Source of the DNA: Tubiluchus corallicola
Lineage: Eukaryota > Priapulida > Priapulimorpha > Priapulimorphida > Tubiluchidae
Direction of reading: 5' to 3'
DNA length: 64,000 bases
Assembly (NCBI GenBank): GCA_030141605.1
Contig: JAQGDQ010000036.1
Coordinates: 620,001-684,000, forward strand
Below the pieces are notes generated by a model. It ran no database searches. It saw nothing but the letters and a program-made list of their open reading frames with translations, and was not told the DNA's origin. Made by a program: the position numbers and the translations under genes. The stretch's first letter is position 1. Every line of letters starts with the position of its first letter. Shown here one piece after another: positions 12,644 to 61,962 of this stretch.

Positions 12644-15600
12644 CAAAACTAACAGTAATGCTACTTACATTTCCAATTGAGTAAAAGCTTCAGCATTGTT
12701 TTGGCCAATTAGAATACCCCACATCAGCATTTACCTTGGTAAAGGAATGTTCTGCAAATAAGGATATCCTTCTGTACGAAACGATGGCGCCTCTATGGGT
12801 ATATGATCAACAACATAAACATCCTCAAGAAGTAACAATGGCTTACCATCTACAGAATTCAGGTCGAGATTGACGCACTGGGATGTCACTGGAGTTTTTG
12901 CTTTAGACGAGGTGCTTAAAGTGTAGTTAACAGTAGGACCACTAATTCCCAGTAAATCTGCAAGTTCTTGAGTGCAGAAGCTATGTGAAGAGCCAGAATC
13001 CAACAAAACAAATGTATCTGTTGAGCCATTCACGTTTACTCCTACTATAGCTATATAAGCTTCTATGTTCTTCTGGATGCTAACACATGCTTTGACCTGA
13101 TGATCAATGGATGCAGGAGTTGAAACTAGTTTAGGTGCAGGTGCTGATGTTGTAGTATTCACGTCCACGTGCAGCAGTCCAGAATGTTCTTTGTTGCAAC
13201 CTGGAGCAGTACACTTATACACTTATATGGGGCAGTCCTTCCTGTAATGTCTTCCTAGCAGACATTTTTCGCACAGTTTGTTGTCCTTAACTGTCTTGAG
13301 ATGCTCATCCATGCTCAATTTCCTGAAATCTAGACAAAAGACGAGGCGGTGGTCAGATTTACAAAGAATGCATGGCTTGTACAGTGGCTTAGCAGTCACA
13401 CCACAACTGAATGATTTTTCTCTTTATGCTTCTTTGCAAAACTTTGCGCTAGTTTGCCAGCTTTATCATACAATGGATCTGTAGCATCATCTGCAGCATT
13501 CTTCATGAATTCGACCAAATCGCAGAACTTTGGACACACTCCTCTTGTTTTCTTTGCTTCCAGTGCGAACTTTTTCCACTTCTGTTTAAGGAAAAACTGC
13601 AGGCGGCATACTATGTTAATAATGCATTGCTGGTGGTTTACTTCGGAGAACATGCCCATCTGCTGAACTGAACTGTTGGCATTACCTAGGTCGTCAGCTA
13701 ATTTTCGCAAATCCTCTGAAGACTTCACTGCTTTACCATATCTAAGTTCATTTATGATACTGTCTGCTATAATATTCACATCACCGAATCTCTCTTTCAG
13801 CAGTTCGTTTGCTAACTTGTAGCCCTTGTCGCCACCAACCAGAATGCAATTGCATCATTGGCTGGTCCCGTGGTATACTGAAGCAGTCTGGATAAGTTTA
13901 CTTCACTCTTCACAGGTGCACTATGAACACTTTCATCAAAAACTGCAGTAAAGCTTAGGTATTTGTTTGGATTACCATCATGGACCTCCAGTTCCAATTT
14001 CGGTAAATTCATATATTCCAAAAAGTCAGCTGCCCTACTAGTGAAGGTAGATTCTTGTTTAGTCGGTTCCCCTGACGGTAATGATGATTACTTTAGCAAT
14101 AATTTAGCACTTTTTAAACACTGTAGGTAGCTAGCCAAAATGTCATCATGATACCTGTCACTATCAGCAATCTCTTGTTCAACCTTTAAGTGAATATGAA
14201 ATTTGTCATGAATTTTCTCAAAGTCCACGAACAGCTTCTTCACTTTGTCCCGTGTGACCTATATTATTTAAATTGTATTTTGAGCAATTAAGCAAAAATC
14301 TCACTTCTAGTCGCTTAGGCTGCCATATTGTAGAGGCATATGCAAATCATTTAATGCATGCAGATGATGTGTGTTTGTTGGCAACAACTATTCAAGCATT
14401 GCAAAAACTGTTAGACATCTGTGTGAAATATGCAGATGAACATGATATTAAAATTAATGATGATAAGACTAAATCGACTACTATTAAATCGAGCAATATA
14501 TCACAGTTTGGCACATTATTCCTAAACAGTAAGGCTATAAAAACCTTTGATAAAGAAAAGTACTTTACCTTACTTAGGGCACATTATATCATGTGCTAAT
14601 AAAGATGACCAAGACATTCTCCAGCAGCGGTCCTTATTTTGTTGCAATACGCAAATTTAGTTACTGTTCCGTTCATGTAAAGAATTTTTTTTTCAATTCT
14701 TATGTACGAACTTTTACTGCATGGCTGCCTGGCGCAACTACTATAACTTGTATGGTTTAAAAGTTGCTTATAATTCATCGTTGTGCAAACTTTTTAATCA
14801 TCCATTATTTGATGCTTGTGCTAGAACGCTGCGTGTAAACTATGGATTAATTTATTTTGATGTTGTGCCTATAGTCCACAGAAAAGGTTAAATAGTAATC
14901 AAAATCAATTATGTAAGTGCATAGTAAACTGACATAGCGTTTACATCTCCTATTAAAAGAAATTGGTGTGCAATTTTATACTGTAATTAACTCGATTTTT
15001 GTTGAATGTAATATTGTTCCCTTAACTCATTATCATTGTGTAACTTTTTTCACTGTAACTGCCTCATTTATTCATCGTTATTAATTTTTTGTCATTTTCT
15101 TAATTTTCTGTTTTTTTTAGTAATTTGAGTGTAAATGTGTGATGTTGCATTTTGTAAAATGAACTGTGGTTTGCAATAAAAATATCATATCATATCATAT
15201 CACTGAGGGAGGGAAGGACAGTAGAAGGGGAGAGAATGAACCCATAAATGTAAAACATAAAAAAGTGGTATTAACAATTTCTTTGTTGAAAAACGCGAAA
15301 CCTAAAATTCTTTTTAATACCAAAGATGCTATAAAAATTAATATTTCTAATAAATGGAATGGATTGCGAACTTACAAACTCAGTACGTGCAAAACTGCTA
15401 CTGGTTGTTATAAAAAAACCGAATAATTACAATTTGCAAAAATTCATTGTAACATTCTATTACTTATAACTAGCCATGCCCCATAAAAGACTAGACGGTA
15501 TAGCGTAATGGAAAATATATACGTCTGCTTTATGTCTTGGAGACCCATGATTTGTTTCCGCAGCCTGGTTATACCAAAGCTCAGAAAATGTCATCTGCTC

Positions 15601-26195: not shown

Positions 26196-29100
26196 CTATT
26201 GATGTGCACAAGCAATGCCAGGTCCACCACCATGCATATCACCCTCTTCATCCTCATGGTAAGCCTCCCGATAGCCGCTACCTTCACCACCTTGCTCGTG
26301 TGGGTTGTAGTCATGAAGATTAACTTCTTCCACGTGTTCTCCTTCAGGTGCTACAAATCGAGGGCGCTTTGGCAAAAAATTTTCTAATGCCTAAAAAATT
26401 AAATAGGCTTTGATGTTCAGTTATTCACTTAAAAACAGCAAAATGAGGTGATGAAGCAAATTGCTATTTCTAGTTAGACTTGATACATTAATTACATTCT
26501 TCTCACAAATGAGCCAATATGATCATAAAGAAAATGTTTGCATACACTCAGAGAATATAGTAAAACAGTCGAAGTGAACTAGAAGTACTTACAAGACAAT
26601 ATACATAATGCATTGCCAGGTTTTTAGGAAAAACATTTTTCTGACAATTTTTTGCCACCAATTACTTGAAAACTTTTTGAGAAATTTGCATTGAAAAATC
26701 GCATTTTCTTACATCCAACATTGCATCTTTGTTTTTATGGCAAAAAAAGATAAAAAGGAAACAAAATGAGGATAGCATGAAACACCCTTTTGCTAACTGA
26801 CAAAAATAATTTAGAAAAAAATCACTCTGATAAACCTATATTGCTACCTAGCATGTTAATCATTCTATAAGTTACTAATTCTAATCTAAATATTATAATA
26901 CGTCATCATTATTCTTTGTAACAATGTGCATACCTTTAACTGGGCTTCATCACCAAATCCATTTTCTGGAAACTTGATATCAAATCGGATGTGTAGATTG
27001 CCTTTATCGAAAGGATGTTTATACATTGGCATACCTTCATTTTCTACACTCATTACACTACCTAAAAATTGAATATCAAAAGAAGAAATATTAAGTCTGC
27101 TGCTTTAAGAAAAATGAAAATGCAGTATATAAAACTCGGCAATAACTTGCTGCTACAGAATCTCAGGCTTATATGCACGTAAACACTAAAACAATGTTGG
27201 CAAATTACAGTTGATTCAAATGAATTTGTTGACCTTTAAACCATGAACTATTATAATGCTTGACAAACGCACATGCCATCGTCACGTAACCTAAAATCGT
27301 GAAAACTAATTAGCCACAACGAGCGTGCCCTGGTCGCCGAATTATGGCAATTCTAGACAATTTCTACAATTTTCTGACCACCATGACTTACAACTAAGAA
27401 AGGTTTCACATTCTATACAAGCAGCAAATAGATACAAACTAAGGGTACTCATTCTAATCTAGACGATATTTTGATTTGAGGATAATAGTGATATATTCTG
27501 ACAGATCCCGTCAACTTCAACTTGAAACTCATCAAAGGATATTTCTGCTTGTCGAAGCGAAGCTATAACTAACTAACAAGCTAATACATATTTCAAAAAG
27601 GAGGGATAGTAGCAAGATACAAATTATGGCTATTTTCTATTAAACAGAAAGTACTGATGTACAGCATGTTTTCTTATTTCTTTAATACATACCATCCAAG
27701 CAACAAGCATTATATGGAATTTAAATAAATAGTATAACGTTTCACACTGAAACTTACCTGGTTTAATAACAGTGCCTGGTTTATTATGTACTACTAGGGA
27801 CCTGTCGTCGAGGTGTTTTACCAAAAACTGACCGCCACAAAGTGCCTCTGCTAGACTAATTGTGTGTGTCATCCATAAATCATGACCGTCACGTTGAAAA
27901 ATTTCATGATCTTTAACCTGAAGCACTATGATTATATCCCCAGGCTCAATGCCAGGCTGAAACAAACACATTTATTTAGCTACTAACACATTTATACACT
28001 AAACTTGTGAGGTTTGTTCAATTAACATTATTATTTTATCATGTAATGTGGGAGCGCATACGAATCTAGGTTTTGCACACGCAGAGATACTTTCCAATGG
28101 TAAAACACCAATTATTGGAAACTGACAGAAAAACAGTTGCACAATACTTGCACAAACTGTAGCAACCGAACAGTTATATCAAGTTGAATACAGGACAGAA
28201 ATTTGATATAAAATTTGAACAATTAACATTCATAGTGCAGATATCAGCAGTAAATATTCAATGCATCAATATGTGTCACTTCAAGCATCCTAAGTATACC
28301 CTAGGCCACATCCAATTAATGTCAATCATCCTCGGTCAAGTTCTGCTGACTGTCCAATCAGCGTGCATTATTTTTGACACACCTGTACAATCTATGTGTG
28401 GCTGTTCTTTTGAGACTTTAGCCGCAGCTATGTATTGCCGGTATACAGGGCTGGCTCTAACTAGTTTGATGCCCTAGGTATAATCAACTCCTTCCATGCA
28501 GTTTCCACCACAATTGCAAAATTAAATTTTTCTTGTATAATACTATAATAAAGTATAATTGTACTTTGTGTTAGGCTTATACATGTATTATAGTGTACTA
28601 ATTATGTGTAGTTTAGTACCTATCTACAGATACTGTTAATTGAGATTGAAGTTGAATTTCAGAAAAATGAAATTTATGTTCAGATCTCTATCACCCTTTT
28701 GGGCAAAAGAGACATTACAATTACAAGCAAGACATGTTTACGAGAAATATGGTAAGCATTAAGTAGGCACAATTAATTATAACTAGTGCAAAAGAAATTA
28801 CAGTAATCTAGTTAAATTCAGACATTTCAGCACTGCCAAATTGTTTAATTCCCTTGGTTTACTAGTTGAGAAAAGCTGTTCATACTTTAAAGTATTAAGC
28901 CTCCTGCTTTAATGACCCCATTGTACAGCTTGGGTCTTAATGAGCAATCAAATTTTTGCAGTTTCCCTTGGCTAGACTTTCCTCAGCCTTCGCATCAGAA
29001 AATTTTGGAACTCCATAACTCCTCTTTTTCAGGTATACATCCATTTCACAATCTGGCTTCACCATCTTCACAACTAGTTGCGCACTTTATTAGCTGTTCA

Positions 29101-32100
29101 ATGTCCACCAGCTTTTTTACCTTTCATTTCCTGTACTCGGCTCCCGAAGATTTAAATTTTTATAGGTTTATCCGCCATAATTAAATAAATGTTATCGTAA
29201 GAAATTTTCTTTATTAAGGGGAAAGATCATTACTATAAGCATTTACACAGTTCTGCTGCTCTGTGCATACAATAGAAAATGTGAGCAAAAGCAGTGGTGC
29301 CTGAGTGAAATCACGTAATCTTAGGAAACCAGATAAGGCAAAAGTAGAAAGTGTTTTGCTGCGGGAACAAACCTCAGCGTCAATAAAGCGTACATTTGAA
29401 CAGGACAATGACGCATATACATAGTTTCATTTAATTTAAATGTTGGGTACTTAGGTAATTATACATACACTAAGTTATTATTACTCCAACTTTAAAAATT
29501 AAAGAATTACTCCTAGAATTTGACGCCCTAGGTAACTGCCTAGTTTGCCCAGCGGTAGAGGCGGCCCTGCTGGTATACGTTATACTGTTATGAAAAACGT
29601 TCAACCTTTCATTAGTTCGCAGGAATTCACTTGATTCTAGATTTTATTACAGATTGTCAATTGCCTGTATTGTCATTTGAAATTGCAAGTGAATTAATGG
29701 AAATGTATAGTTTAATTTCGTCTTTTATAGGAAGAAATGCACAACACCTTCATCTATAAATTCCTGATTAAACCATTTTGCCATCAATAAAATACACAGT
29801 TTACTTTAATTTATGGCTTTGCAAGTTAGATAAAGACAACTATTTGATTAACTAAAAAAATAACCAGTTACCTAATGAAGTTAAACTGATCGTATGACGC
29901 TGCTTTAATGATTGCAAATATCAAACAAATATCAAATAGATTACCTGAACAAAGGTGATGATGAAATTTACAAACTTCAGTATGAAGCCCGAGTTAACAG
30001 GTATAAATGAGTCAAGCCTTCAAGGTTAAATTTCAAGTAAACGTCACAGACTTAGTTGTAATTACCTTTACACAGGTTGTAGACACAGGAATAAGCTAGT
30101 CAGCAATTCAGCAAATCTGTTTAGCTGGTCAAAAGTTATATTATATATCTATGTAATATTAGCATCCGGAAATAGTTAATTTGATACTTAAAATATGTCA
30201 TTGGGACTTATGTAATTCGGGCAGTCGATATAAGAATCGTCTACGGAATGGAATAATCAATTTTATTCCATTTTTGTAACCTAACAAACAACTGATGTAG
30301 AAAAGAATATGTCGCAGGTATGAAATGCTCGTATATTCAAAGGCAAGAAAGGCTTTCGCAAATTCTTTTTATTCCCCATTTGTCTAAAAGCCCTGGCTTA
30401 GTTCCTTTATAATAATGACCTGACTAGGCACTCATGTAACTGATGTCCCAATTTCCAGTCAGCGATAGACCAATGTGCTTGGCGTCAATTTTCTGTAACT
30501 GTTGTTATTCTGATAATTATCAACAATGGCGATGATGATAAATTTTAAAGATTTTATAAAACTAATTCTTCAGTGAAACTTTCTAAAAAATGATCTGCAT
30601 TTCAACAGAGCAACAACAACTATGATTATGGTTAATCCATGGATATCAACCCATACCTGCTGATCGCCTTCACCACGGAAATAAATCTTTTGTCCATCTT
30701 TCATGCCTTTTTCTATATGAACTTCTAACACTTTGGTCTCATTCTTTATTTTTTTACCAATACAGTCTCTACACCTGTCCTTCTCTCTAATAACTTCTCC
30801 TACAAAAATGTAATGAACATGTTAAGTTTATGATTAGTCAGCAAACTCAATAAGATGAATAAGTATTACACTGTGCACATCAGCTTACTTTTACAAAGAA
30901 TAAACTTTAAAGTACAATATCACTCAGTAGAAAGTTAGCACATGAAGACATTGTCAGCAACATAGACTGAAGTTGTTACTTCTTCTGTAATCACTATTCG
31001 TGCTCATCACGGTGACCAAATTTCTTTCGATTAGTGCACTAAAAAAAGTTGGAAGAAGTTTTTTGCAACTTGCTTTAAATTATTAATGGCTAACAATCTT
31101 GAGTTTTGCTTTTCACTTTTTATGAGAATAATAGAGTTGATTTTTTGAATCTCTGGTTAAAACAGCCAGTACGGTACTACGGTTAACGGTACAAATATGC
31201 TAACCATGGTATTTAATTTATTTGGATAGAAAATATCATATTGTCGCCATTGTTTCACTCCGCACACACATGTATGCAAAGCACTCGTAAAAAAACTAAA
31301 ACAAAAATTGTGTGATGTTAAAAAAGAAGCTGTTAAAACAATTTCAAGGCTAGGTGGACTGCGTAATTTTCATTGCTTTCTATACTAAAGTAAAAAATTA
31401 TTTGACGTAGGAGTACCAATCAAGGAAAACAGAAAAACAACTGCCTTTACTATTGACATGCTTATAAATTACAACCTTCTCCACCACAGTCAAAACACGG
31501 CGATTGAATCTGTTGTACCATGCCAGGACCAAGCTGTCTAAGCTGTACTTGAATGCCTCGACCGTGACATTTAAAACAGTCAACCACAGCACCAGGTTTT
31601 CCTCCTTGGCTGAAAAATGATATGAAAGATGATGATCAGAACATGGTCCCTACAGTAATATATCATTTATTTGGACTTATGAGGCAGACGCCTAAAAAGA
31701 CGCTTCTACTTCTAGATATAATCATTACAGTAGTATTTTTCTTGTCATAATATTTCCATAAATTGTATATGTTTCATTTCAAAATAAAGTACTTGCTATA
31801 TTTCCATATACAAACTTGAAAACAACAAAATACAAAACTAACTATAAAATATTAACTTTAAGTTCACAACCAATTGCTCTTAGATCCTAATGTAAAGCGT
31901 AATGTAGGTAAAAACATAATGCATGCCATGACCACTAATAATTGGAGTATCACACCTTCCACATCTGGCAAGTATTAATGTCAACTATAAAACAAAATTA
32001 AAACCAATATTAAAATTTGATAAAATGAGTAAATGTCAGTCATCACTTTTGTAATACACGATCACAAACAATACATACCCGTGACAGGAAGGACACATAA

Positions 32101-35100
32101 CCTTTTTGTTAAGCTGTAATTTTGCTGTTTTCCCATTATATAGATCTTCTAATGTCACTCTAAACAATTAAATTCAGAAACATTTTTGATTTTGTAATGG
32201 CAAGCCTGTCAAAAAACACACGTTACACAAACAAAAAACAATAAAAGCGGCATTTTCTATACCATAGTGAATTCTGGGCCTGCACTCTGCAAAAAATAAA
32301 AGCTAAATTGCAATATTTCCCACATATATTCTAGCATAACAATACCTCAGATATCCACTTTGTAAAAAAATGTAACTTTAAATGAACATCGAAATTAGGA
32401 CTTGGGAATACACATTTTGCATTTAATTATTGTCAGACCTTTCCATTCATATGAAATAACTAATTCAGTGCCATGCACAAGATCTCCGTACTTTCTGTCA
32501 CCTATGAACAGACAAAGATATTGTGCCAAGTGCTCGAGAATATTAACTTTTAACCTAGAAAGACGTACTCAAGGTAACTAAGCAACAGTCAAGATCTGCC
32601 CACTTTTAAGTATTGTAAGTAGCAATAATACGCTTGTGTAATATTCTTATACATTCCATATCATTCTGCCACATTACTGTTTTTGTCTCCTCATTATTGT
32701 CCACTGTTAAGCATTTTAAGGTTTCTTACTTCATATAGACAAAAAGAAATCAATAGACTAATATTTTACTATTTCACAGCAAAATATAAAATACCATGTT
32801 TCCAATACATAAAAGTTAAAGGTAATTACCGTAAAGGATGCAGTGTGTCTTGTCCGCGAGTCCGACGAGGTCGTCTACCGCCCATGCCTCCAAAACCACC
32901 AAATAATCCTCCTCCGAATATGTGGGAAAACAAATCGTCAGCAAACAATCCTAGTTAAAAGCACGAAAGTTTAGTATGAAATGCAAATTACAATTAGAAA
33001 TTAAAGCATGCTCTTTACTGTAAAATTAAAGTGAAAATTTGATACTAATAATTTAAAAATAGAACTGAGTTCCAGTACGTGTACAAGTAACAACATCAAC
33101 AGTTACTATTAATGAGAATCCAGAAAAAAGCTTTTGCTTTAGTTTAAATAATGCAAATGTTGCAGTGCAATACCATATAGAATCACAATCTCCTTCACGA
33201 TAAAGCTCAAAACAACTACAGTTTCATTTCGTAGCCAGCTGTCTGCTATAATTTCTAATATCAACAAAGGTAACCCAAACAAAGGGAATTACAAAAATCG
33301 ATAACCCATTAGATAATTTTAAGTGATTTCTAAAGTCAAGCATTAATGCTATATACATTTACATAGATAATTTACATTTACAGACAGAAATATACCACAT
33401 TAAAACAACATTTCTCCTATACTGTTTTTGCATTCTGTGACTAAACTAAAAAACTTTAACTTATATGCAAAGTCAGAATGAATTAAGGTTAAAAGTGACA
33501 TACTATTTTAGCAATAAAACAGCAGGATTTACATTAAATACCAAAACTAGATTTAAAATAAATTGATTAAAATTAATTGGTAGCATAACAATGAAAAAAA
33601 CTGGGAAATGAGACAATGGAAAGTGATCAAACGGTTACTGACTGAAAGTGTAAGCAAATTTTACCAGAGTGGTCACTTCCACCTTCTTGCAGACCTTTTA
33701 ACCCATACTGATCATATATACGTTTTTTCTCTGCATTCGAGAGAACATCATAGGCAAACGATATTTCTTTAAACTAAAAAAATATGTATAATGTTGAATT
33801 ATTAGTTCAGTTTCACTTGCTCTTAGCTGGATGGGCGCACGACTGCACTTCCTCATAGGTACTAAATATAAGTAAAAGAGTTGTTATAACAAGGTGAGAA
33901 ATTCATTAACAGCAACATTAAAAATCACTATAAGTTATAAGTTATGTTATATAAGTTACATCAACCATAGAATAAAAAATGAGATTTACAAAAACAAATA
34001 GATCTCACATTTACAGCTCACAAATGTTTCTTGGTGTTTTCTTAAAAACTGATATTTTTTGCACTCTGATGAACTAAAGTATCACTTGCAGCATTAAACA
34101 AAGTATTAGGCTATTTGTTAAACAAAAATCATCAATTATCCTTGAAAGTCATGGCCTGACCTACATGCATAACACTCCAATGACGGTACCATTTTCGATA
34201 ATCTATACATCAAACAAAGGTCTGGACCCACAGATTTGCCATTGGGGGTTCATTTTTCAAATTGGGTCCACCGGGAGGAATGGGGGGGGGGCAAAAAACC
34301 TAAAATAATGGCCTTTTTTGCGAAAATTTGCAAAATTTATACCTCTTATTTCTAGAGAACGGGAACGTGTGGGAAGCGGAGCCAGTAATGGCTAGATAAG
34401 CTCATTCAATGGTGGGTGTTATAGTCATATTTAGATTTTGCGGAAGGGCCACTAATACCCGCTACGGGATTTTCCCGGACCCATCCACACAAATTTTGCA
34501 GAAAATATCGGAGGGGTGATAGGGTGTGTCTAGTGTTGGTGGAGTGGTGTAGGTGGTGTGGTATAGTGTGGTCTGGGTGGAGGGGTGTGGGTGTTGTGGT
34601 GGCGTAGTAGGGTATGTGTGGTGTGTTGTGAGAGGTGTGGTGGGTGGTTGTGTGGTGTGGTGTGGGTGGTTGGTGTGGTGCGAGTTGTTGTAAGTTTATG
34701 CGCAAAATTCTTTTTGCGGGGTTTGCCTAGAGCAAAATTAAACCTCACAACACTTTCAACACAGATCAAACGTTTCTGTGAAATAGTATAAAATCCAACA
34801 TATATATCTGTTGCTAGTTTTTACCTTAGGCCGTTGTAATAGACTAGATGAAATAAACAAGCTAGAAGAACATGAATTCTGATGTTGCATGAACAGAATT
34901 AAAATATTAGATATTGTGGGTTCATTTCGAGGATCAGCTGCAAACACACATATAAAATGGGCCTTCAAACATTTATCATTTGAACATTTCAAACGACCAA
35001 CAATGGTTAGTATGTTACAAAATGTGTACTCACAATCTCGCCATTTTCAGGATTTTTGTCTGGATGATATTCTTTTGCCAATCTGCGGTAAGCCTGAAAT

Positions 35101-36633
35101 AAAATTCGTGCGTAGAGCTCATACATAATTTACACATATAAGGTACATCAAACAAACTGTTCCTGTAGATTTTCTTACGACTACATCAGTATTTTGCACA
35201 TGGCACATGTTGAGACTGTGACACATGAGTACCAAGACTGATGCAAATAATAAATTTTCACCAAATAATACAGGTAAGGGTGAAGTTTGCTAGTTTATTA
35301 TAAATGCTAGTCTGTTTGTCAAACTATAAATGAAAATTTGGCATAGAAAACTGTTGCTCCAGACTCACTTCTACCAACTGCAAATAGAAAGTTGGTAGAA
35401 AGGAATATAGGGCAATAATTTTAATTAAAACATTGCAAATCTGAGACTATATCTACAGTATATAGAAGTAATAAAATGACTATATAATTTCATCACTAAA
35501 AAAGCTTCAAAAATATCTAAACTGCAGGAATGTACCACTAATCTGTAGTCATTTCCTTTTGGCACCGGTTGCTTGAATTAGACTGCTAAATTTTTAACAA
35601 GCAAAAGCACCAGGGGTAACTTTTTTGAAACATTACAGTTTTGCACATTACAATTTTGCACAAGTTGCCTCAGAGACGACTAAACTGATTTGAAACCTGG
35701 CAAAATACAAATTCCATATGAAATTCCACACTTCAAGAACATGTAAAATTTACAACCATCACGCAATAGTACAGTTTACACTGTTTACTAGGTACCACAA
35801 CAATCAGTGTTTCTAGCAAGCAGTTTCCAATCATATTCGATTTTCAGCATCAAAAATATTCTTGATTTGTTATGACCAACTTCCACTTACAAGCCTAGGG
35901 ACTGAATAATATGAACAGGAGACTTAATCAACCAGTAATTTCCTGAGAAATTAACTGAAATGAAACCATAAATTTGTATCAATCTTTTACTTGTGTAATT
36001 TGCTTGGAATGATGTGTTGCAAAAAGATCATTTCGCAAAGCCAGCTTTAAAGTTAAATTTGCAAAACTTTAGAGCACAATTTTTTCGAGTTCACAGCAGA
36101 AGACTAAGAATGACTAGAAGAACTTAATCTAATTTATGCTAAATCTTAATTAATTTAAGTAATTAACCTAAGCCAATACATATATTTATAAACATATGTG
36201 GTATGTTTTTGGCCTTGGCCTTGGAATTCAATTCTTATTTTTCTAAATTTTACTTCTGGTGGGGATTCCGGGGAACTCAAACTATGCTTCTTCGATACGT
36301 AGTTGGGTTTCACTTCAATAACTGTAGCCGAAACTGGATAAGATTTGTTTCGGCTGGTTTTGCAATTATGTTGTAACAGGATGTGCCCAACTATATACAG
36401 GATACCTACTTAGTGTTGAAATGAATGTCACTGTCAGTGTCAATAATCAAAGACAACAGTATCAACTGGCATGTGAGTTCATACAACCTCTCAAAATACA
36501 TTGGCTTATGAATATATAAAAAGCATTGTTCTTAAAAATTGCAAAATGACCATACACTAACCTTTTTTATATCTGAATCACTTGCATTTGGTGAAAGTCC
36601 TAGAACTTCGTATAATTGAGTCTCTGCCATCAT
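26196..36633 (-). CDS. DNAJA2: DnaJ homologue subfamily A member 2 (type I Hsp40 co-chaperone), complete, 413 aa
   Basis: Ten exons on the minus strand: 36633-36562, 35093-35034, 33773-33665, 32950-32830, 32159-32079, 31609-31476, 30799-30657, 27956-27758, 27061-26934, 26390-26196. All have GT-AG borders and the phases join without a break, giving 413 aa against about 412 in vertebrate DNAJA2. Order of parts: J domain (residues 1-70, HPD at 34-36), Gly/Phe-rich stretch (about 81-110), four CxxC zinc-binding pairs (C143/C146, C159/C162, C186/C189, C202/C205), two substrate-binding beta domains, and a Gly/Glu-rich tail ending CAHQ. That final CaaX box is the one of vertebrate DNAJA2 and predicts farnesylation. 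The protein stimulates Hsp70 ATPase and delivers unfolded clients in the cytosol. The start is MMAET; the second Met (36630) is also possible. The fourth zinc motif is CRDCIGKK. Upstream lies a solo LTR with a heat-shock element (37786-38150). Confidence 0.95.
28446..29569. mobile_element. hAT-type non-autonomous element, 1124 bp, in DNAJA2 intron 7
   Basis: The left end is cagggctggctctaact; the right end, in reverse complement, is cagggccgcctctaccg. This is a classic hAT terminus. Flanking 8-bp direct repeats are ccggtata (28438-28445) and ctggtata (29570-29577), 7 of 8 identical. Just inside both ends sits gccctaggta. No transposase was recognised in the interior. Confidence 0.9.
29578..30656. 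other. Remainder of DNAJA2 intron 7
   Basis: AT-rich intron DNA between the hAT element and exon 7. Nothing recognised. Confidence 0.6.
34270..34700 (+). repeat. G-rich / GGTGTGGT-rich low-complexity tract in DNAJA2 intron 2
   Basis: A run of ten G (about 34279-34291) is followed at 34509-34690 by about 180 bases made of ggtgtggt-like units with almost no C on this strand. The DNAJA2 transcript carries the C-rich complement. Frames through it (Thr/His/Pro-rich on the minus strand) are artefacts. Confidence 0.85.
35094..36561. other. DNAJA2 intron 1
   Basis: GT-AG intron (donor gttagt on the minus strand, acceptor tttcag). AT-rich, nothing recognised. The remaining DNAJA2 introns not listed separately are also without recognisable content. 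Confidence 0.7.
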
Positions 36634-37400: not shown

Positions 37401-37777
37401 ATTGGGGGTGAGCATCGATCATTCAAGTTTGAAAGGTTTGAATTCGATTAGCAAGAGTTTTTTTAGGTGGGATTCGATTCGAACCTAATAATAAGTTTGA
37501 ATAATTCAGTACTTTGACTGTATACAATATTTAGTCGTAAAACATTTGAAACATTATGCAATCAGCACAATTTACCTTTGATTATTAGAGTTTTTACTGC
37601 AGAAGGAAACTGAGTATTAATGTGCATAATCTTTGTGAGACTCTTTTTACTAATGTTTCGAAAAACCTTAAAGTGGGATTCAAATTTGATTCGAATTCAA
37701 TACTCGGTTTGATTTGAGCTCAAAAGTCGCAAATTCGATTCGAATTCGCTTTCTTGCAGAGAATGCTCACCCCTAAT
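37401..37777 (+). mobile_element. MITE, 'ggggtgagcat' family, most complete copy
   Basis: The left terminus attgggggtgagcatc (37401-37416) matches the reverse complement of the right terminus aatgctcacccctaat (37762-37777) at 14 of 16 positions. Subterminal regions are crowded with attcgattcgaa-like palindromic words. Other copies lie at 2918-3170 and 60081-60500. It lies immediately beside the solo LTR (37786), upstream of DNAJA2. Confidence 0.85.
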
Positions 37778-37785
37778 GATGAAAG

Positions 37786-38150
37786 TGTTGTGGAGATCCA
37801 CTAGAATCGTTCTATAGTATATTAGAACCAACCTTCTTACCTTATAGAAGCAGTCGAAGTTTCGAGAACTTCCTATACGCGATGCGCGTAGTAGTTTCTA
37901 GATTGTTCATTGCACTGATATATAAAGCGTAACTGGCCACTCAAGTTTATCCTCATATTGTCGTATTCTCAGATTAATCTCAGATTCTCGCTTTCTCGCT
38001 TTTACATTTCCAGATTATCACTTGGCTGTACATATTTTGCGTTCCTTCATAGTTTTGGGTTGTAGAATTCTCGCATAATAAACTAATTTAATTTGATGAC
38101 GTGTTTTCTGGTTTTCTCTACGAGCCGTCCGAGAGAAACAAAACACAACA
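37786..38150 (+). mobile_element. Solo LTR, 365 bp, with 5-bp target duplication
   Basis: Starts tgttgtggagatcc and ends aaacacaaca, so the ends form the perfect 7-bp inverted repeat tgttgtg/cacaaca with TG...CA borders. It is flanked by gaaag on both sides (37781-37785 and 38151-38155). It has the layout of an LTR promoter: heat-shock-type element at 37856-37868, TATA-like atatataaag at about 37919, and aataaa at about 38078. No internal retroelement genes adjoin it, so it is a recombination product. The parent family is unknown (5-bp duplication fits Gypsy, Copia or BEL). Confidence 0.9.
37856..37873. promoter_or_regulatory. Heat-shock element (three perfect nGAAn units) in the solo LTR
   Basis: GAAgtTTCgaGAActTCC gives three perfectly spaced alternating GAA/TTC units plus an imperfect fourth. 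This is the known binding site of trimeric HSF. It lies about 50 bases before a TATA-like atatataaag. It is inside the LTR, 1.2 kb upstream of the Hsp40 gene DNAJA2; HSEs act in either orientation. Function is inferred. Confidence 0.65.
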
Positions 38151-39289
38151 GAAAGCTACATATCACAACATCCTAAATTAACACCCGGGTCTTACGCTAC
38201 AGTTGAAGAACTTTCAAAAACAGCATTTGTTGTGGCACATCAACTGCAAATTTTAGTAGCTTGCTATCAAATATTACACGTGCCACTTGGTCTTACAGTG
38301 CCCGAGAATATCAATTAGCAGTGCTGTAAAAACCTACATTGAAATTAACCGAGAGCAAGATAATTTACAATAGATTTTACAGATGCTTGATTAAGTGTTT
38401 ATGAACACAACAATGTTGTAATCGCAGAGCCCATGCACTGTTGTAACTTGGCATCTTTGTAAATTGTATGGATGCTCTCAAATTACTACACTGAGCAGCC
38501 TCGTGCATCATAGATTGAATGCTACACAAAACTGTACGTTGTAAGCAAAACAAAATAAAATAGAAAGTTTAGGCACCATGTAAAGTATAGGAACTCATCT
38601 AAATTTAGCCATTTATAAGTTTTTCAGTGAAAACAGACACACACTTGGTAATTAATCAAAAAAATTTTGTCAACTTGAATTTTTTCAAGCAGTAGCATTG
38701 CTACCTTCAAATTATGCCTACGTGTAGTAGCTAATGGTGTTCAGATAAAGAACAGCACGAAGTCTAAATCGATAAGCCCATAAATAATTTTATAGGCATG
38801 TTGCAAATCAAAAATGCATCAACGGCTATTCTAAGGGCTCAAGATTAAACGTTTCTAACATTGGCAAATATTCATCCTACAAATCAAACATACCTTGAAG
38901 TTTAGTGAGAATGTGCGTTGCATTCTTTCATTAATTCTTATATCCTCAACTACAAATGGGGATTCAGCGCAGGAGTGGCACTTGTATCAAGTTTTGGTTG
39001 CACGCAACTTGATACAATATGTATTGTATATAGTTTATAAAATCACTGTTTGTATTTGTAAATGAAATTATTTATGTTTACAAGAAGCGTCAGATGTTAT
39101 GTTTCTGTTTGTTTACAATGTGTTTAGAAAAACTAGGATGCGAACTGTGGTTCTGCATTAAGTCTGTTTATTGAACCTAGAGAACTTCTTGAAAATTTGC
39201 AAACTCTAGTATTACTGACTTTATTATTAGAAAAATCACAGCTATTTGTTTACTGACAAAAATTTCAGATAAATTACGGTCAGGCATAT

Positions 39290-41480: not shown

Positions 41481-44400
41481 ATGGGTTGTGGGCACAGTAA
41501 AACTGTGCCAGAGAGTGGTGAGATCGACAAACTTGGTAAGCTTAAGGAAATGAATATTTTGGATATCGGCGATGGTGGAAAATGCGAAAAGAAAATGAAA
41601 CAAGACACCGCGAGAAGGAAGTCAAAAAATCGATGGAAATTTAAAACTAACAAAACGGCTCAGACAAAAGAATCTGCGGAAGAAAATTTTGTAAAGGAAG
41701 GTGGCAATCAAAAAATACAGAAGTATCGTGCGAAATTTGATCCTCGTGTGACCGCGAAATATGATATCAAAGCTTTAATTGGACGCGGAAGCTTTAGCAG
41801 AGTGGTGCGTGTTGAACATCGCATTACCCGCCAGCCTTATGCAATAAAAATGATAGATGCGTATGAAGGAAGAGAAGTGTTTGAAACTGAGCTTGCAGTA
41901 TTGCGACGCGTGCGACATCCATACATTGTTCATTTAGTGGAAGTTTTTGAAGCGAGGGATCGTATATACATGGTGATGGAACTTGCAACAGGTGGTGAAC
42001 TTTTTGACCGAATAGTTGCAAAAGGTAGTTTCACAGAACGAGATGCAACGCGAGTTTTACAAATGGTGCTTGATGGTGTACAATATCTTCATAGTTTGGG
42101 TATTACACATAGAGACTTGAAGCCTGAGAATCTGTTGTACTATCACCCTGGTTATGACTCCAAAATATTAGTAACAGACTTTGGACTAGCTAGTACCCGA
42201 AAAGCTGGGGATGATGTAACAATGAAAACCACATGTGGTACACCTGAATATATTGCCCCAGAAATTTTATTACGGCATCCTTACACCAATGCTGTAGATA
42301 TGTGGGCAATTGGGGTTATAACATATATATTATTAAGTGGTGAAATGCCATTTGATGATGAAAATAAAACAAGACTCTACAGAATGATATTAAAGTCCAG
42401 CTATACTTATGAAGGCGAGGTACGTATTAATATTCTAAAATAATTTGCGATTGTTTTCAAATTCTTTTAAGCAGTTGATTGAGTACTTGAATGTAATTTG
42501 AAACCCAAATTTTTGTAATGAAAAGACTAATTTATTACTAATGATGAATTGGCCCTTTTATATTCGACCAAGTTAACCCTTGCCACTGACTCATGGTCAC
42601 ATGATTTCAGCCCATAGAGTGTAGTAATTACATCCTTTATGCAGAAGAAATTCTATTGTACCGCTTCCATTGATGACTGATCTATGTTAAACTATTGCTT
42701 ATTTTGCTGTACGCACTATGCGCACTATGAAAATAGATTCGTATCTCGGTTTGCTGGACCTCGCTTTTACGATCTCGACTTGTAATGGCAATGATTTTGC
42801 CTTCTTTCTTCTTTCAGTGAAAGTCTTCTTTCTTTATTTTATTTATTTGTTTGTTTATTTATAAAATAATCTTAATTAAAAGAAAACAGAATCCAATTTT
42901 ACACCATGGCAGTGTTTACTTTGTGCTATGCCTTTGCATCATCGTGGCTAAGAATTTTTAATTTTCATATTTGTCAATGGTGGTTGCAGTGACTACGTCC
43001 CAACAGGCTTAAGAAAATTAAGAGTGAGACATACTAATATCAATGTCCCCACCCAAACTTTACTTGAAAAGACGTAATCCGTGCTTGTAGACTGGCTTCG
43101 TTTTCTGTGCTTTGAACAGCTAAAGTCTCAAGTGTGACAGTGAAAGTTTCACAACAGAAGTCCAACCAAATGCTGTACTGAAAATCGTCACCCTGATGCA
43201 AAAGACTTGTAGGCAATAGACCGCCAGGTCGGAGAGTGTAAGGAAAATTCACCTGCTTTAATAGTGCACATTACCTTGCTGACTGGGCTGATTGTATGTA
43301 TTACCTTGGAGCTTACAAATGCGGATTCGATCCTCCTTAGATGTCTTGTGCTAGGCCGGATTCCAAGCTAAACAACCTAGCAGTATCATGCTTAGAGTTT
43401 AACAACTACCATTTAAGTGCTACATTTATAAGCACTAATACTATCAGAACATTAGGTGTATATTATTCTATATATTTGTTTTCTTTTATGTAAGAAGTGC
43501 TTAAATGAGTGATAATATTTGAGAATAATTATTTTTAAGTTGTCAATATTTGTTTCTCTTTAGCATGTTTGGAAATTGCGATTTTACTTTTTGGTACAAA
43601 TGCCATAATAATAATTCAAAATTACTGAGAATTTCAATTTCTATAATTTCCAGGCAATAATCAGTATAATTCCCAAATAATTTCCTGACTGTGAACCTGA
43701 CACTTCTAGTTGTCTACAGTTACTTCTAAGGGTTGTAGGCGCTTCCTTTTGTAGGGTGCCCTTTACCGTACTAGCCCATATACCGCAGTTGCACAACTAT
43801 ACATGTGCTAAATTAGCAGTGTGATATGTGGGTTAGACAGAAAAATCGAGTTACGTTACTACAACAGAATTTATTCTGTGATGTGTTGAACTTCAGAGAA
43901 TGAATTGTGTTGGAGTAACATAACTTTATTTTTTCTTTCATTTGGCATTTTATCACATGATCTGAACGTTTACAATTTAGTGTTTGCTTTACACAATTTG
44001 GATTTTTGTAATTTTTATACACCATATTTATATTCAGGTGGATTCAGAGGTAATCATGACCATGCTATGGTCGAAACATTGCAGATGAGCAGATGTTTGT
44101 GTTTAAATAATTTAAGCTGTCATTTTCATGATACTAGCTGTCATTTTCATTTTAACTATTTTAAATTTTCATTTTAAATTATTGTTATTATTAAATAAAC
44201 AAGGAGAATGGATGCTGCCAACCTGCCAGTAAGTTAAATTCAGCTCACTTTCTGACAAAATCGGGTGCAGTATTTTGGCAGCCCGTATAATAAGAAATCA
44301 CCTCACTTTGCGCTATATGGGCTAGCGCGATAAATGTTTAAGTGTTTAGATAGGCACTATGCATGAAAAATGACAAAAGAATGGCTTACTTGAAAGAATT

Positions 44401-54427: not shown

Positions 54428-56280
54428 TGACCAAACTCATGAATGATCAAAAGGAATGTCAGCCTACCTGCCACAGCTAGTCTAGCAATCTTTCAGGCCT
54501 TGCACACAGTGTTTAATGGAAACTGCATTCTGCCAAGCGCAAGTCTCAGCAGCAAAAAATGTAGTTGCATGTAAATAAACACCCTCTCTTCCTGTTATAG
54601 AAGAACAGATGGATCTCTTGAAAAATTTAAACAAAGACGTATTTACGTAAAGGTTTTGATGCGCATATGTTGTTTTCTCCCGCAACGATACATTTTTTCA
54701 TTTTTTGCCAATGCGCTGTTGAATATATTTACTATAACATTTTTCTGTAAAACAATATTGTAAGGTTTCTTAGGTTAAAGTTCAGATAACAGTGTGCTTG
54801 AGATTATTCCTCTGGTTTCTCTTTAGTTGTCATGCATTTCTTTATATATCACTTGTCAAGATTTCACTTGACCATTGGCTAAATAAAGTTTAGGCTGTCA
54901 TTAAAATTTATTTTACTTAAATAATCCTAAGGAGATTATCGGATTGCTGAGGTTGAAAATTTCCATTCCGAAACGTCTAGAAACTACTCATACTAGAAAT
55001 AATTAAAATTGCCTTTGTGTTGAAAAATTTAACATGCAAACCTTTTTTGTTGTTACAAGCCTGTGTTGTTTTGTTTATTTTTATTTTTTTATTATTTTGC
55101 TGGTGTTGAGTGGTAGACATGTTGTACTTCTTTTGTTAATGAGGTAAAGTAGTATTACTTTAAATAAATAAAACAGCTAAATTTCGTTGCTGTTTGTCTG
55201 TAGTTGACTTATCGCAAATAATTTTCGTATGTTTGCTTGCGCAATTGAATGTTAGTGATGTTGCGTACGATATGTTCCTTTAGCTATACTGTAAAGATGC
55301 CAATTGTTTATCTATTAAAAGACATCTGGTTAATAATTGATTGTCCTTTTTTGGTTGACAGTTTTGTGTAAAGATTGTCTGTCGACATTAGTGGTTTACC
55401 TGTTTTGATATTTGTAATTATACAATAAAAATCTTGCTTTATAGACCAGTTACAACATTTGTCTGCTTTCTTAAAGTGTCATAAAATTGTCCCAAATGTT
55501 TGTCTCAGTCTTGTTATTTGAGTATTGCTTGTAAATACGGCTTATTTTTTATTTTAGATGGGTGAAGTTTAAACTATATGCATATACATGCATTTTTTCT
55601 CATAAGCTATGAATGTTTTTATACATTCTTTTTTTTTCTAAATGTTGTAAAATCAGCTATGCAAAATATCATAAAGTTGAGAAATAGCAACATCAATACT
55701 CAATAGCTGCGATGTACATATAACACTGTTCGCAAGCCTTATCTTTCTTGTTTAGGTTGCTTTCGGCTCAACCTTTGAGAATATAAACCTTTACATAGTG
55801 ATAGTCATTTGTAAAAATCTTCTTATAACAACAGACTGTGCATATTATTAGCATTTTATGCAAACTATAGTTGTCTATGCATTTTATGTTGCACAATCAT
55901 GTTGACTTTGTAATTATTGTGTTCCTGAAATTTCTTATAGGTGAAAATCTCATCGTAACTTAGTATGTATTAAAAAATATTTGTTATTTGCAGATCATTT
56001 GCATGTACTTCAAAAATATAATAGACCTTTGGATCTTGCATATTTTGAAAGTAGCATCCATAAAACATTTTAGCATTAACACAGTCTTATGAAAATGTCA
56101 GTGCACTGTAATCATATTCTCCTTTTTGTATGTACTGCCCACATTTTGGCTCACTGCACGCCCAATAGTCAGCACTTAGTGTAAACTTACTAATATTGAT
56201 GGTTGTGACAGGACCATAATCTAATTCACTGTCAAGGTTAGTCTGGTGATAGGCCCTATTTTGTATATTATTATACATGC
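54428..56280. other. PSKH1 3'UTR and intergenic DNA
   Basis: Possible polyadenylation signals lie at about 54884 (aataaa) and 55424 (aataaa). No other gene recognised. Confidence 0.5.
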
Positions 56281-57255: not shown

Positions 57256-60200
57256 TGCTTAATCACAAGTGTACTCTAAATCTTCTTTTATGTAAAATAT
57301 ATTCCAAATAATTTTGCACTCGTAAATGCTTATATAATTGAGCTGGAGAGAAGAACGTGAACAGTGTAAGGTCACATTTGACAGTTGTGGCTAGCATTTC
57401 TTTTAAATATACTGTCTCTAAGATCTGTGCTATTTCTTTGAAACAAATAATCTAATGCCTAAAAAATTGTAGATCAAGTGCAGTGCTATGTAGGGAATAC
57501 AGCACTACTTACACTGCATAACTTACACCTTTATTATAACTTTGTCACAGCACTCAAACGCTATCGTATTTCAATGCTGGAAGCAGCATTAAGTGTGTTA
57601 AAATTATTTTGAATGCTCTGTGTTCATATTTGATATTCACGTTCTATATGTCATTTGTTGCAAATTTATTCTGGATGTGTATTATACACAAGTGCCTTTC
57701 CAATTGTGCCTTCAAATGCATTTGCAAATTCAACTCCTGTTTTTATTGTTAATCTGATAATGCTAAAAAGTTAATTATTTTTAATAAATCATGATAATTA
57801 GTTGGGAAATGTTATATGTCTTCCGTGCAGTTTCCTTTTTAGTGTCTAGAACTTTTAATTTAATAGTCCCCAGTGGCTTGTTCCTTTGTACTCTGTTATT
57901 TGATCTCTTAGAATATCATTCAGCATCCATGTTTGTCCACTGTTTAAGTCATTTAACATTAACTATTTGGTGTTTACATAGCCTTAATTTTTTTGGTTTT
58001 GGCAACTTAAGGAAGATATTGGTAAAGATTATAAGACCAAAGTTCTTACTAAGGGCATATTTGTAACCATGGCAAACAGGTAGAATTAAACGTCAATACT
58101 CGATAGGCGCACAGCTGTGATGGTTATAACCAGACGGTCCGAGTCGGCTTAATGTAAGGAAGTAGCGTGATCTCCACCTCACCAACCCAACGTCAACCAA
58201 AATAATTAATGCCCTCATTTTAGGACATTATAATTGCAACAATCTCCCGTAAAGTGTTGCTTGTAAATGCTAGGTGGTGAGTAACAAGTTTTTGGATGAT
58301 AGCCTGTAATGATCCTGGGTCCAAAGGTCGCAGTCTTGGGATTGCAGAAACTGCTGAATGCAGTCGAAGACATCAACATTATAAATAATTTTGATGTATG
58401 TAATCATTGGTAAATGTATGTAGAAATTTTTTGATTAAAATTTGAATAAGAAAAATTTTAGATCCTGGATCAAAGAAAGGTTTTTCACCCTGGATCAAAG
58501 GTCAAGGGTCCTGACAGGGAAATTAGCGCTTTTTTGCATGCAGTGTGTTAGAAGCCAAGCAAAAAATTTTGGAAATGTAGAGGCACTTTCTATGACTATG
58601 TTGAGTACGTTGAACATGAGAATTAGGTGATGTAAGTGTAGCATCATGTCTGAACTTGCCATGCAATAATAGCCAGATTTTGCAAAATTTTGGTGGTGAA
58701 AATTTTTTGCCTTGTTTTTAACCTGTGGCTGATGCATTGCTCAAATAAATTTTTGCATTCGTAATCAAAGCAATAATACATGTGTGGATTTATCTTGACT
58801 TTTTGCATTGTAGCTCTAATGCCAAATGTAAGTCAACATTTTTGTGATGTGTTTCCTAATTAATGTCTAATTAGTGTTTTATGTATTTTACCTTAACGAT
58901 TTCAAGCTTTAAAGCTAAAATGATTAGAAGAAAAAAATTTTCTTGATTTTTCAAATAACTAATCTTTCTGGTGCTCTAGAAATTTATTAAATTATCTCTA
59001 AATCAGCATAGCCCTATTTTGCCTCACAAGAGTCGAAACTGCAAAACGCCCATGGTTATTATATTGGACATCTGGAAAGGCACATTTTGGTGGGAAAATT
59101 GATTGCATGTTGCAATTAAAACAAGACGAGGTTTGATATTTTCAGTGGAAAAATTGAAACAACTTTTGTATAGTGTGATCAACCTTTTCCACATTTCGTT
59201 TAATATCACAGCAGCATATATGAGCTGGAGCGTTAATTTGATTTGTTTCGATCAAACGATGGTTTTTGTCGCACAATTCGATTCTAACTGTGCTACCTGA
59301 GTCTTATGAGAGAGCAAAGTCCATAGATGTTGGCAGAAATCAACTCATGAGCGATAAAGTATTGAACAAAGATTTTTCTTCTTGTTGAACTTTGTTCTGA
59401 TTCTGAACGTGATACAGTTGGGAACGGGGTAGGACACTAGCCCAAGTAAGACAATTGGCATACGTGGGCTAGCGCATGTAGGACGCGTCGTTCATGGCCT
59501 GTGCCCAACTTGGCAGCGTCCGTTGTCCTTTGTTTACTTAATATTAATAATTGAAGACGTCAATACACGTTGAATAATTTATTATACATCTGATGAAATT
59601 AAAAATATTACTCAGAGGTAGTAGAACAGCCAATATTAAACTTGGCTTCGATATTAATCTTTTTGAAGTGAAATAAGCCCTCTTTTTAGGCGATTCCAAC
59701 ATTTGCTTAAGATATATCATTTTTTATTTTGTCTCGCTTCATGATAGACAGGTGATCCGTTTCGCTACCTCTTGGACAAATAATTATTGTTTTTTACTAA
59801 GTGTGATAACAGGATGGTTTAATAAACATCAAATAAAATCTGATACAAATGACTGTGTTAAAGTCGCCATTGATTATTATCCAAAAACAAGAACAACAAC
59901 GAATATGCGCTCAAACTCAGGCGCTCAATCACTTATATTGCCATCTGTTGTGATTTATGTAAATTATGATTAATGAACAAACTCATATCATTACACTAAG
60001 TAAACAGGCTAGCGTTTTTACGTGCCCTACATAATTTCTCTCTTTAAAGCATTAGATACTTATGCTTAAATGTTATGATGATTAGGGGTGAGCATCGAAC
60101 GTTCGAGTTCAAACGTTCGAATCGAATTCGAATGCTCGAATTCGATTCGAACAAGCTTTTTCAGTTCAAACTCGATTCGAATCGAAAAGTATAGATTCGA

Positions 60201-61962
60201 ATAATTCAGCACTTCAATCACATATGTTCTTTATCACTAAAACGATTGAAACGTCATACAATTAGCATAATTTAGCTGTGAGTTCTGCACACATTTTAAA
60301 GAAATTACTAGTAGTTTTACTGCAGAACAAAATCTAGTGATATGCATGATCTTTGTAAGACTAATTTTTACGGGTGGTTCGAAAACTTGTTCGACAATCT
60401 TTCAATCTCAATTCGAATTCGAAACACTGAAGTTCGCTTCGATTCGAATTCGAAAAGTCACCAATTCGATTCGATTCGATTCGAATTCGCTTTCTGGTAT
60501 AATGATGATATTATAGTAAGAAATACATTTTGTAAATTGTCAAGGACAATCCATATAATAAATTAAGTTACTTTTTTTCTAAAACATATTTAGTTTTATG
60601 TTTTATTATGTCATAATTTTCTATTCTAGAGAGATATCGCCAATGCCCTACTTGGGCGCTCGTGTCCGACACTGCTTTTCCGCAAATTTAGTACATGCGT
60701 TTTAGCGGAAGTGTCCTGCTTCGGCTAGTGGCGTATTCCGCGCCCTACAATATATACAAAAACGTTTTAGGTAATGAGTTGCCAAAGAAAATTTCAAATA
60801 AAGATTTGTTCGCAAAATAAAACCATTGAACAAGAAAAATAAAAACGGCTATTTAAGATGGATCGGCATATACTTAGAATATTGATGATAGGCCAGCACC
60901 AGGACAGATGTTAACGTATTTAGATTTTACACAGAAAGACTTAACCACTTCAGCACTGATCCTTAAAAATAGAAGCACTTGGTCCATTGCAGAGAGTAGA
61001 TAGTTTTGGCATCAAGAAGTGAAAAGTATCATGTCTCTGGACGCATGATTCAATGGACGACGACGACGGACATGATAAATAAAGGACCCGACATACTAGG
61101 TGGTTTTGCCGGTGCGCGTGTGCCATTTTTTCCTGTGCCATTTTTATCTACATTCGGTTTTGCCTGCCATGCGCACGCTGATTTGATTTCCTGTAAGTCT
61201 TCTTTATTTTTATTTATTTATTTTTTTGTCTGGCAAAACGTGTTAACTGCATTCCCACTGTGTAGAATAAACGCAAAGATAAACTTGTGTTGTTGGATTA
61301 AGTGTTGTCAGCAAATGCGGACAATCTATCTGGCAGCAAAGCTTGAAGCTTACCTGTTCAAAAAGCCAAGCTAGGCCTATATATTTGAAAAGCAAGCCAA
61401 AGTTTTAGTATTATAACTGTGCCTGTTATATTATTACTTTTAAGTTATGAACTATTATTACTTATAATCTTAATCCCTGCACTGTATGTCCTGCAATGCC
61501 TAACACCTATAAAACAATGATGTTGTTAGTCAGTGAGTATAACTGTGAGTATATGAAACAGCAGGCCTAAGCCAGGATACAACCTACAATGTTTTTTTAT
61601 AGTAGATCTTAAATTTAATCAACTAGTATAATTTAATTGCAAATGTTTTATAATAGTTGTGTTGGGAATGCAATTGTTTGAACTCATTGCATATAGCTTT
61701 TGCTAGCAATAATTGCTCTAGGGGATTCTGATATGCCTCGTATGCCTCGACAGCCTGATTACCTCATACAGGATAAATAATAAACTGTATTATATGTCAG
61801 TAAAATAACATAAGCACAGTGCTTTAGTACTAATTACTTGTTGCTTGTAGTAATAATGTCTAACTAAAAATAACCTTCATTAGATATTTATTAGACATTG
61901 AAGGTACATATGACATCCTGAGATTTAGACTTATGACGGGAGTTTTTATTTTGCCTTTGTAG
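57256..61962. other. Intergenic DNA before the PRPP synthetase gene
   Basis: Holds a MITE copy at 60081-60500 and a fragment of aaaatggcacagg-type units at about 61120-61150. The promoter and any 5'UTR exon of the PRPP synthetase gene probably lie in the last part but could not be pinned. Open frames at 59752-59973 and 61006-61374 look non-genic. Confidence 0.45.
60081..60500 (+). mobile_element. MITE, 'ggggtgagcat' family, copy without intact right end
   Basis: Starts attaggggtgagcatcgaac. The interior follows 37401-37777: gaataattcagcactt, actgcaga, atgcatgatctttgtaagac. It ends attcgctttctggtat then aatgatgat, lacking the gctcacccc terminus. It is packed with attcgattcgaa words. Confidence 0.75.

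Follow-up and report, generated by a model that had tools for sequence, protein, structure and literature searches.

The window, by which we mean the whole 64-kb stretch of DNA that was analysed, contains a 365-bp LTR on the plus strand at positions 37786-38150. Its ends, TGTTGTG...CACAACA, match one another as inverted repeats at 7/7 positions, and inspection of the sequence placed the target-site duplication gaaag immediately to its left (37781-37785) and right (38151-38155). No second copy of the LTR was found within the 64-kb window and the internal region is absent from this copy; we identify it as a solo LTR of a Ty3/gypsy retrotransposon family on the basis of its relatives genome-wide, 5-bp duplications and the internal domains of other copies. 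Three perfectly spaced GAA/TTC units, which together make up a perfect three-unit heat-shock element (HSE; GAAgtTTCgaGAA), were located at 37856-37868 as the original prediction had placed them, ahead of a TATA box (TATATAA; 37919-37925, plus strand). The family alignment shows these units to lie within a four-unit register on the plus strand, GAAgtTTCgaGAActTCC (array 1; 37856-37873), in which unit 4 has decayed from TTC to TCC. Array 1 ends 45 bp before the TATA box, and a weaker array 2, TTCtaGATtgTTC (37896-37908, plus strand), lies in between; array 2 is one mismatch short of three units and, as judged by eye, is repeated across the family alignment. The two arrays are separated by a CpG-rich inverted repeat, TACGCGATGCGCGTA (37876-37890, plus strand; identified by eye), which by eye was also found in many aligned family copies with CpG-type changes. 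An RNA hairpin between the arrays was not strong (z = -1.61), with 14 of 200 shuffles being equally or more stable. The LTR holds 17 CpG in total, and a polyadenylation signal (AATAAA) is found at 38077-38082 on its plus strand. Just beyond the LTR, the host DNA at 38203-38220 reads TTGAAGAACTTTC, which is one mismatch from a three-unit HSE.

On the minus strand, a DNAJA2-like gene of several exons occupies positions 26886-36633, with an approximate low end (the last exon is untraced) and a start that is a candidate only. One of its exon regions matches both DnaJ_C and DNAJA2 in the PDB, and further exons follow by eye in reading order. The candidate start, ATG ATG at 36628-36633 on the minus strand, is 1153 bp from the LTR, which confirms the predicted DNAJA2 neighbour about 1.15 kb away on the opposite strand, with a provisional start: the frame stays open upstream of 36628-36633 and there are more ATGs there. 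The sense direction of the LTR is away from DNAJA2 and toward the first coding exon region of a protein kinase (41481-42443, plus strand; kinase domain by Pfam), which we take to be PSKH1-like and whose ATG, at 41481, lies 3.3 kb downstream. Situated between the LTR and DNAJA2 is a MITE-like element (approximately 37403-37775) with GGGGTGAGCAT / ATGCTCACCCC inverted ends and a TTCGAATTCG-rich interior. It is presumably hAT-like, and relatives of it were found at 60138-60481 (65%) and within two further sequences, L012 and L022. Elsewhere in the window there is an aspartyl protease domain (Asp_protease_2; 12731-13222, minus strand) that is a relic of another retroelement, as well as a reverse transcriptase fragment (RVT_1; 14258-14599, plus strand) that is possibly a LINE relic.

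The original prediction had regarded the LTR as clear from its TG...CA ends and duplication. Simulation did not bear this out: across 60 simulated 64-kb stretches, TG..CA pairs that combine inverted ends of 7 bp with a duplication of 5 bp came up 0.97 times on average, and two such pairs are present in the window; identification from the ends was therefore rejected. In 200 simulations, requiring a TATA box followed by AATAAA on either strand kept 33 of 217 pairs, and requiring a length of 250-700 bp as well kept four. Similarly, 0.73 perfect three-unit HSEs are expected per 64 kb and two were observed, and 20 of 100 shuffles hold at least two. The second of these is at 55922-55934, and there are no further ones in the window. 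Since the ends and a single HSE are each near the chance level, relatives of the LTR are needed to make the case.

Using the window LTR, we searched the genome (343,548,820 bases; 343.5 Mb) and scored the best 40 of 1011 first-look candidates. This gave 41 matches among the scored candidates, so that related LTRs are present at no fewer than 39 other places; apart from one fragment at 89% and the window's own match, identity to the window LTR was 77-87%. For the analyses that follow, the sample comprised the 39 other places, which were recruited through similarity to the whole window LTR, one further sequence (L005) from 250 kb of genome stretches picked irrespective of content, and the window copy. 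Of these 41 sequences 38 are distinct, L036 and L037 having been dropped as identical to L035, and L062 as identical to L061; in the HSE counts L005 was taken as 584-950 and L052 as 345 bp. Exact 5-bp target duplications flank 17 of the 40 other sequences examined, a count that includes both L061 and the identical L062; in it the interval for L052 spans an insert, and L005 was mis-trimmed. The window copy and the family thus share TG...CA LTRs with a short target duplication (4-6 bp). It is the existence of this family of copies that confirms both the LTR and the HSE, and with the ends, the gaaag duplications and the related copies taken together, the predicted solo LTR at 37786-38150 is a genuine LTR. 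Three LTR patterns had no match in viral or prokaryote collections. One LTR copy is present on three contigs (L035, L036 and L037), two of which are of nearly equal length, and this suggests that the three are haplotypes retained in the assembly. A tandem array with a unit of approximately 60 bp was seen by eye in L005 at 4230-4905.

The family was assigned to Ty3/gypsy from internal pieces of other copies. A primer-binding-site-like sequence following the LTR is common to five LTRs (L029, L034, L040, L047 and L053), and a purine tract preceding it is common to three (L041, L044 and L050); in this comparison the right flank is uninformative for rows without a located right end. As these LTRs run into common internal sequence, the family includes elements that have an internal region. 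RVT_1 and RT_RNaseH are encoded by two such internal pieces of 2 kb each, L065 and L066, and in L065 an rve integrase domain lies downstream of reverse transcriptase and RNase H, with Integrase_H2C2 there slightly below the curated cut-off. The pol order, complete in L065, is reverse transcriptase, RNase H, integrase, which is the Ty3/gypsy order. The reverse transcriptase piece of L066 also matched the PDB entries 4ol8 (labelled RT/RNase H), which we take to be Ty3, 7q5b, which is Ty3-G Gag-Pol, and then 8r0s. The family of the window LTR is thus Ty3/gypsy.

The four-unit register of array 1, aligned as GAAnnTTCnnGAAnnTTC, is widespread in the family. All four GAA/TTC units are perfect in 17/38 distinct copies, three in 19/38 and two in 2/38, such that at least three of the four units are kept in 36/38; taken singly, units 1, 2, 3 and 4 are intact in 27, 33, 35 and 34 of the 38 copies, respectively. 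Counted as perfect contiguous runs, 17 copies have four units, 12 have three and nine have two. A contiguous run of at least three units was therefore present in 29/38 copies versus 0.24% of 3,800 shuffles of the same first 200 bases of each copy, none of which held four units, and nine copies are without a contiguous run of three. When the copies were divided by similarity, four-unit sites were found in 8/18 of the more similar half and 9/18 of the less similar half, and this likeness argues against a strong recruitment bias. L005, whose U3 is strongly diverged with nearly no blastn match there and which was matched chiefly via R/U5, carries a perfect three-unit HSE (GAATGTTCTAGAA) and a four-unit array with one mismatch, both ahead of its TATA box. 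That most examined copies carry the HSE indicates that a heat-response switch is probably the element's own. The HSE thus probably belongs to the retrotransposon family and not to this locus alone. Its retention in other copies was the first check that the original prediction had proposed, and the idea that heat inducibility may have come to the retroelement with the LTR is now the foremost interpretation of the sequence.

Conservation of the array was then compared with that of the surrounding U3. When all unit columns are included, the HSE register comes only 49th among 244 placements, because unit 1 reads GTA or ATA in 11/38 copies; these copies do not form a single clade in the tree. With the GTA/ATA copies and L005 excluded, intact sites numbered 17 of 26 versus 11.8 expected from each copy's own divergence, and departures ran at 2.4% across the nine non-CpG unit columns versus 7.0% across other U3 columns (position 72 left out). 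Intact sites exceed the number expected under neutrality by a modest margin. The window copy itself retains units 1-3, and its TCC in unit 4 is private among the 38 copies, being one of 12 private states in this copy and the one private loss in its 12 HSE unit bases. Its HSE is, as read from the alignment, a decayed four-unit site. The end branch of the window copy, whose sister is L029 (97/83), is 0.067 versus a median of 0.053, and this similarity to other copies gives no sign of constraint on the window copy. A very young insertion, as suggested by CpG richness, was rejected on the same grounds, as an end branch of 0.067 is not short.

Alternating GAA/TTC units in an exact 5-bp register near a TATA box are the layout of an HSE, and heat-shock promoters are built with an HSE a short way ahead of the TATA box. 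The locus holds a solo LTR of a multi-copy Ty3/gypsy retrotransposon family, and we consider it likely that this family has a heat-shock promoter of its own, with the heat-shock element in U3. Where an element has internal sequence, HSF activated by heat would bind the four-unit array upstream of the TATA box, transcription would start approximately 30 bp beyond the TATA box, and stress would be followed by an HSF-driven burst of expression of the element. At the locus, the two LTRs of an insertion would have recombined to leave one LTR and the gaaag duplication; the HSE of the solo LTR has since begun decaying, with the loss of unit 4, and weak HSF binding may remain. The HSF binding, heat induction, start site and recombination origin in this account are ones that we infer from sequence. 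DNAJA2 would most likely be a chance neighbour of the LTR. Chaperone genes number around a hundred, and if hundreds of copies of the LTR are assumed in 343 Mb on the strength of its abundance in the searches, a copy within approximately 1 kb of one of these genes would be unsurprising; with many family copies, a single copy beside a chaperone gene would need no special cause.

The array could also be inherited family sequence with no HSF function, for example a site used by a different factor or a chance feature of the founder element. GAA/TTC arrays can serve factors other than HSF, all copies share common ancestry, and the array is conserved only modestly over the rest of U3, each of which is consistent with such an origin. 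Against this, the units keep the exact 5-bp alternating register near the TATA box that is the HSE layout, array 1 is followed by a second near-HSE array, and L005 has an HSE despite its highly diverged U3. We therefore regard an array without HSF function as unlikely. Going beyond a heat-shock element in the family's own promoter, the family may have captured a four-unit heat-shock promoter, been amplified by it and scattered many HSF landing sites through the 343-Mb genome, some of them rewiring genes in their vicinity, DNAJA2 or the PSKH1-like kinase among them; this larger scenario is speculative, and we hold it to be doubtful.

The original prediction also proposed that the LTR now acts as a stress enhancer for DNAJA2, in which case the solo LTR would have been co-opted and HSF at 37856 would raise DNAJA2 transcription from 1.2 kb upstream. 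The LTR is 1153 bp from the ATG, the interval between them is without any other perfect three-unit HSE, enhancers act in both orientations, and the heat-shock response of Caenorhabditis is reported to have been made more diverse by Helitron-borne HSEs (PMC6927752). However, the LTR points away from DNAJA2, the loss of unit 4 is private to the window copy among the 38, and its end branch (0.067 versus the median of 0.053) gives no sign of constraint. Moreover, the cited passages of PMC5059998 give functional heat-responsive elements in 0/16 ONSEN fragments and solo LTRs of Arabidopsis. The proposal is thus unsupported, and we judge an enhancer role at DNAJA2 to be highly improbable. We give very little credence to the LTR, if active, being a heat-inducible sense promoter with a transcript that runs toward or is spliced into the PSKH1-like kinase, or is a noncoding RNA: the TATA box and AATAAA are both on the plus strand, 3.3 kb separate the LTR from the downstream ATG of the kinase, which has an AG immediately ahead of it, and there are candidate donor-like sites at 38905, 40009, 40509 and 41333 (the last being GTAAGT), but the LTR's own AATAAA should terminate most transcripts.

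The likely reading, a heat-shock element in the U3 promoter of a Ty3/gypsy family, can be set beside known heat-responsive mobile elements, as described in the cited passages of the papers concerned. In Arabidopsis, the LTR of ONSEN/COPIA78 has a cluster of four nGAAn units that HSFA2 binds, activating the element (PMC3907296, PMC5059998). The LTR of the window family likewise has a four-unit GAA/TTC cluster, and runs of at least three GAA/TTC units are kept in the promoters of 29/38 copies, these having been recruited by whole-LTR similarity. ONSEN is, however, a copia element of plants for which binding by HSFA2 and induction by heat have been shown, whereas the window family is a Ty3/gypsy family known from its sequence and, judging by the gene content, apparently one of an animal. 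Furthermore, the ONSEN promoter is described as without CG sites (PMC3907296), compared with the 17 CpG of the window LTR. Membership in ONSEN/COPIA78 was ruled out, as the family is Ty3/gypsy and not copia; the family may nonetheless work like ONSEN.

Other elements resemble the family in part. Copia of Drosophila, also an LTR element of an animal, contains heat-shock consensus sequences and is expressed more strongly under heat (Strand and McDonald 1985, cited in PMC3907296), but it belongs to the copia superfamily. Helitrons of Caenorhabditis carry many HSEs (PMC6927752) and are likewise HSE-bearing mobile elements of an animal genome, although they are DNA transposons with no LTR promoter. 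The Cryptococcus LTRs of TCN3 and TCN12 contain putative HSEs, and the retrotransposons are mobilised at 37 C (PMC12810828); these elements are fungal, with two putative HSEs in TCN3 and one in TCN12. Tf1 of fission yeast is a Ty3/gypsy element mobilised by stress, but it is fungal and the passage of PMC6927752 that mentions it describes no HSE array. Thus, HSE-bearing LTRs are already known, within the passages cited, in plant copia, in Drosophila copia and putatively in fungal LTRs, as are HSE-bearing Helitrons in nematodes. In the open-licence literature searched, for which passages of the papers were the source, a four-unit HSE was not found in any Ty3/gypsy family of an animal, and neither was a paper on HSE insertions in heat-shock promoters. 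If heat-induced, the family would amount to a counterpart of ONSEN among animal Ty3/gypsy elements, arrived at in a different superfamily. It would then also be a source of dispersed HSEs, and its effects on the host heat-shock response would be testable copy by copy.
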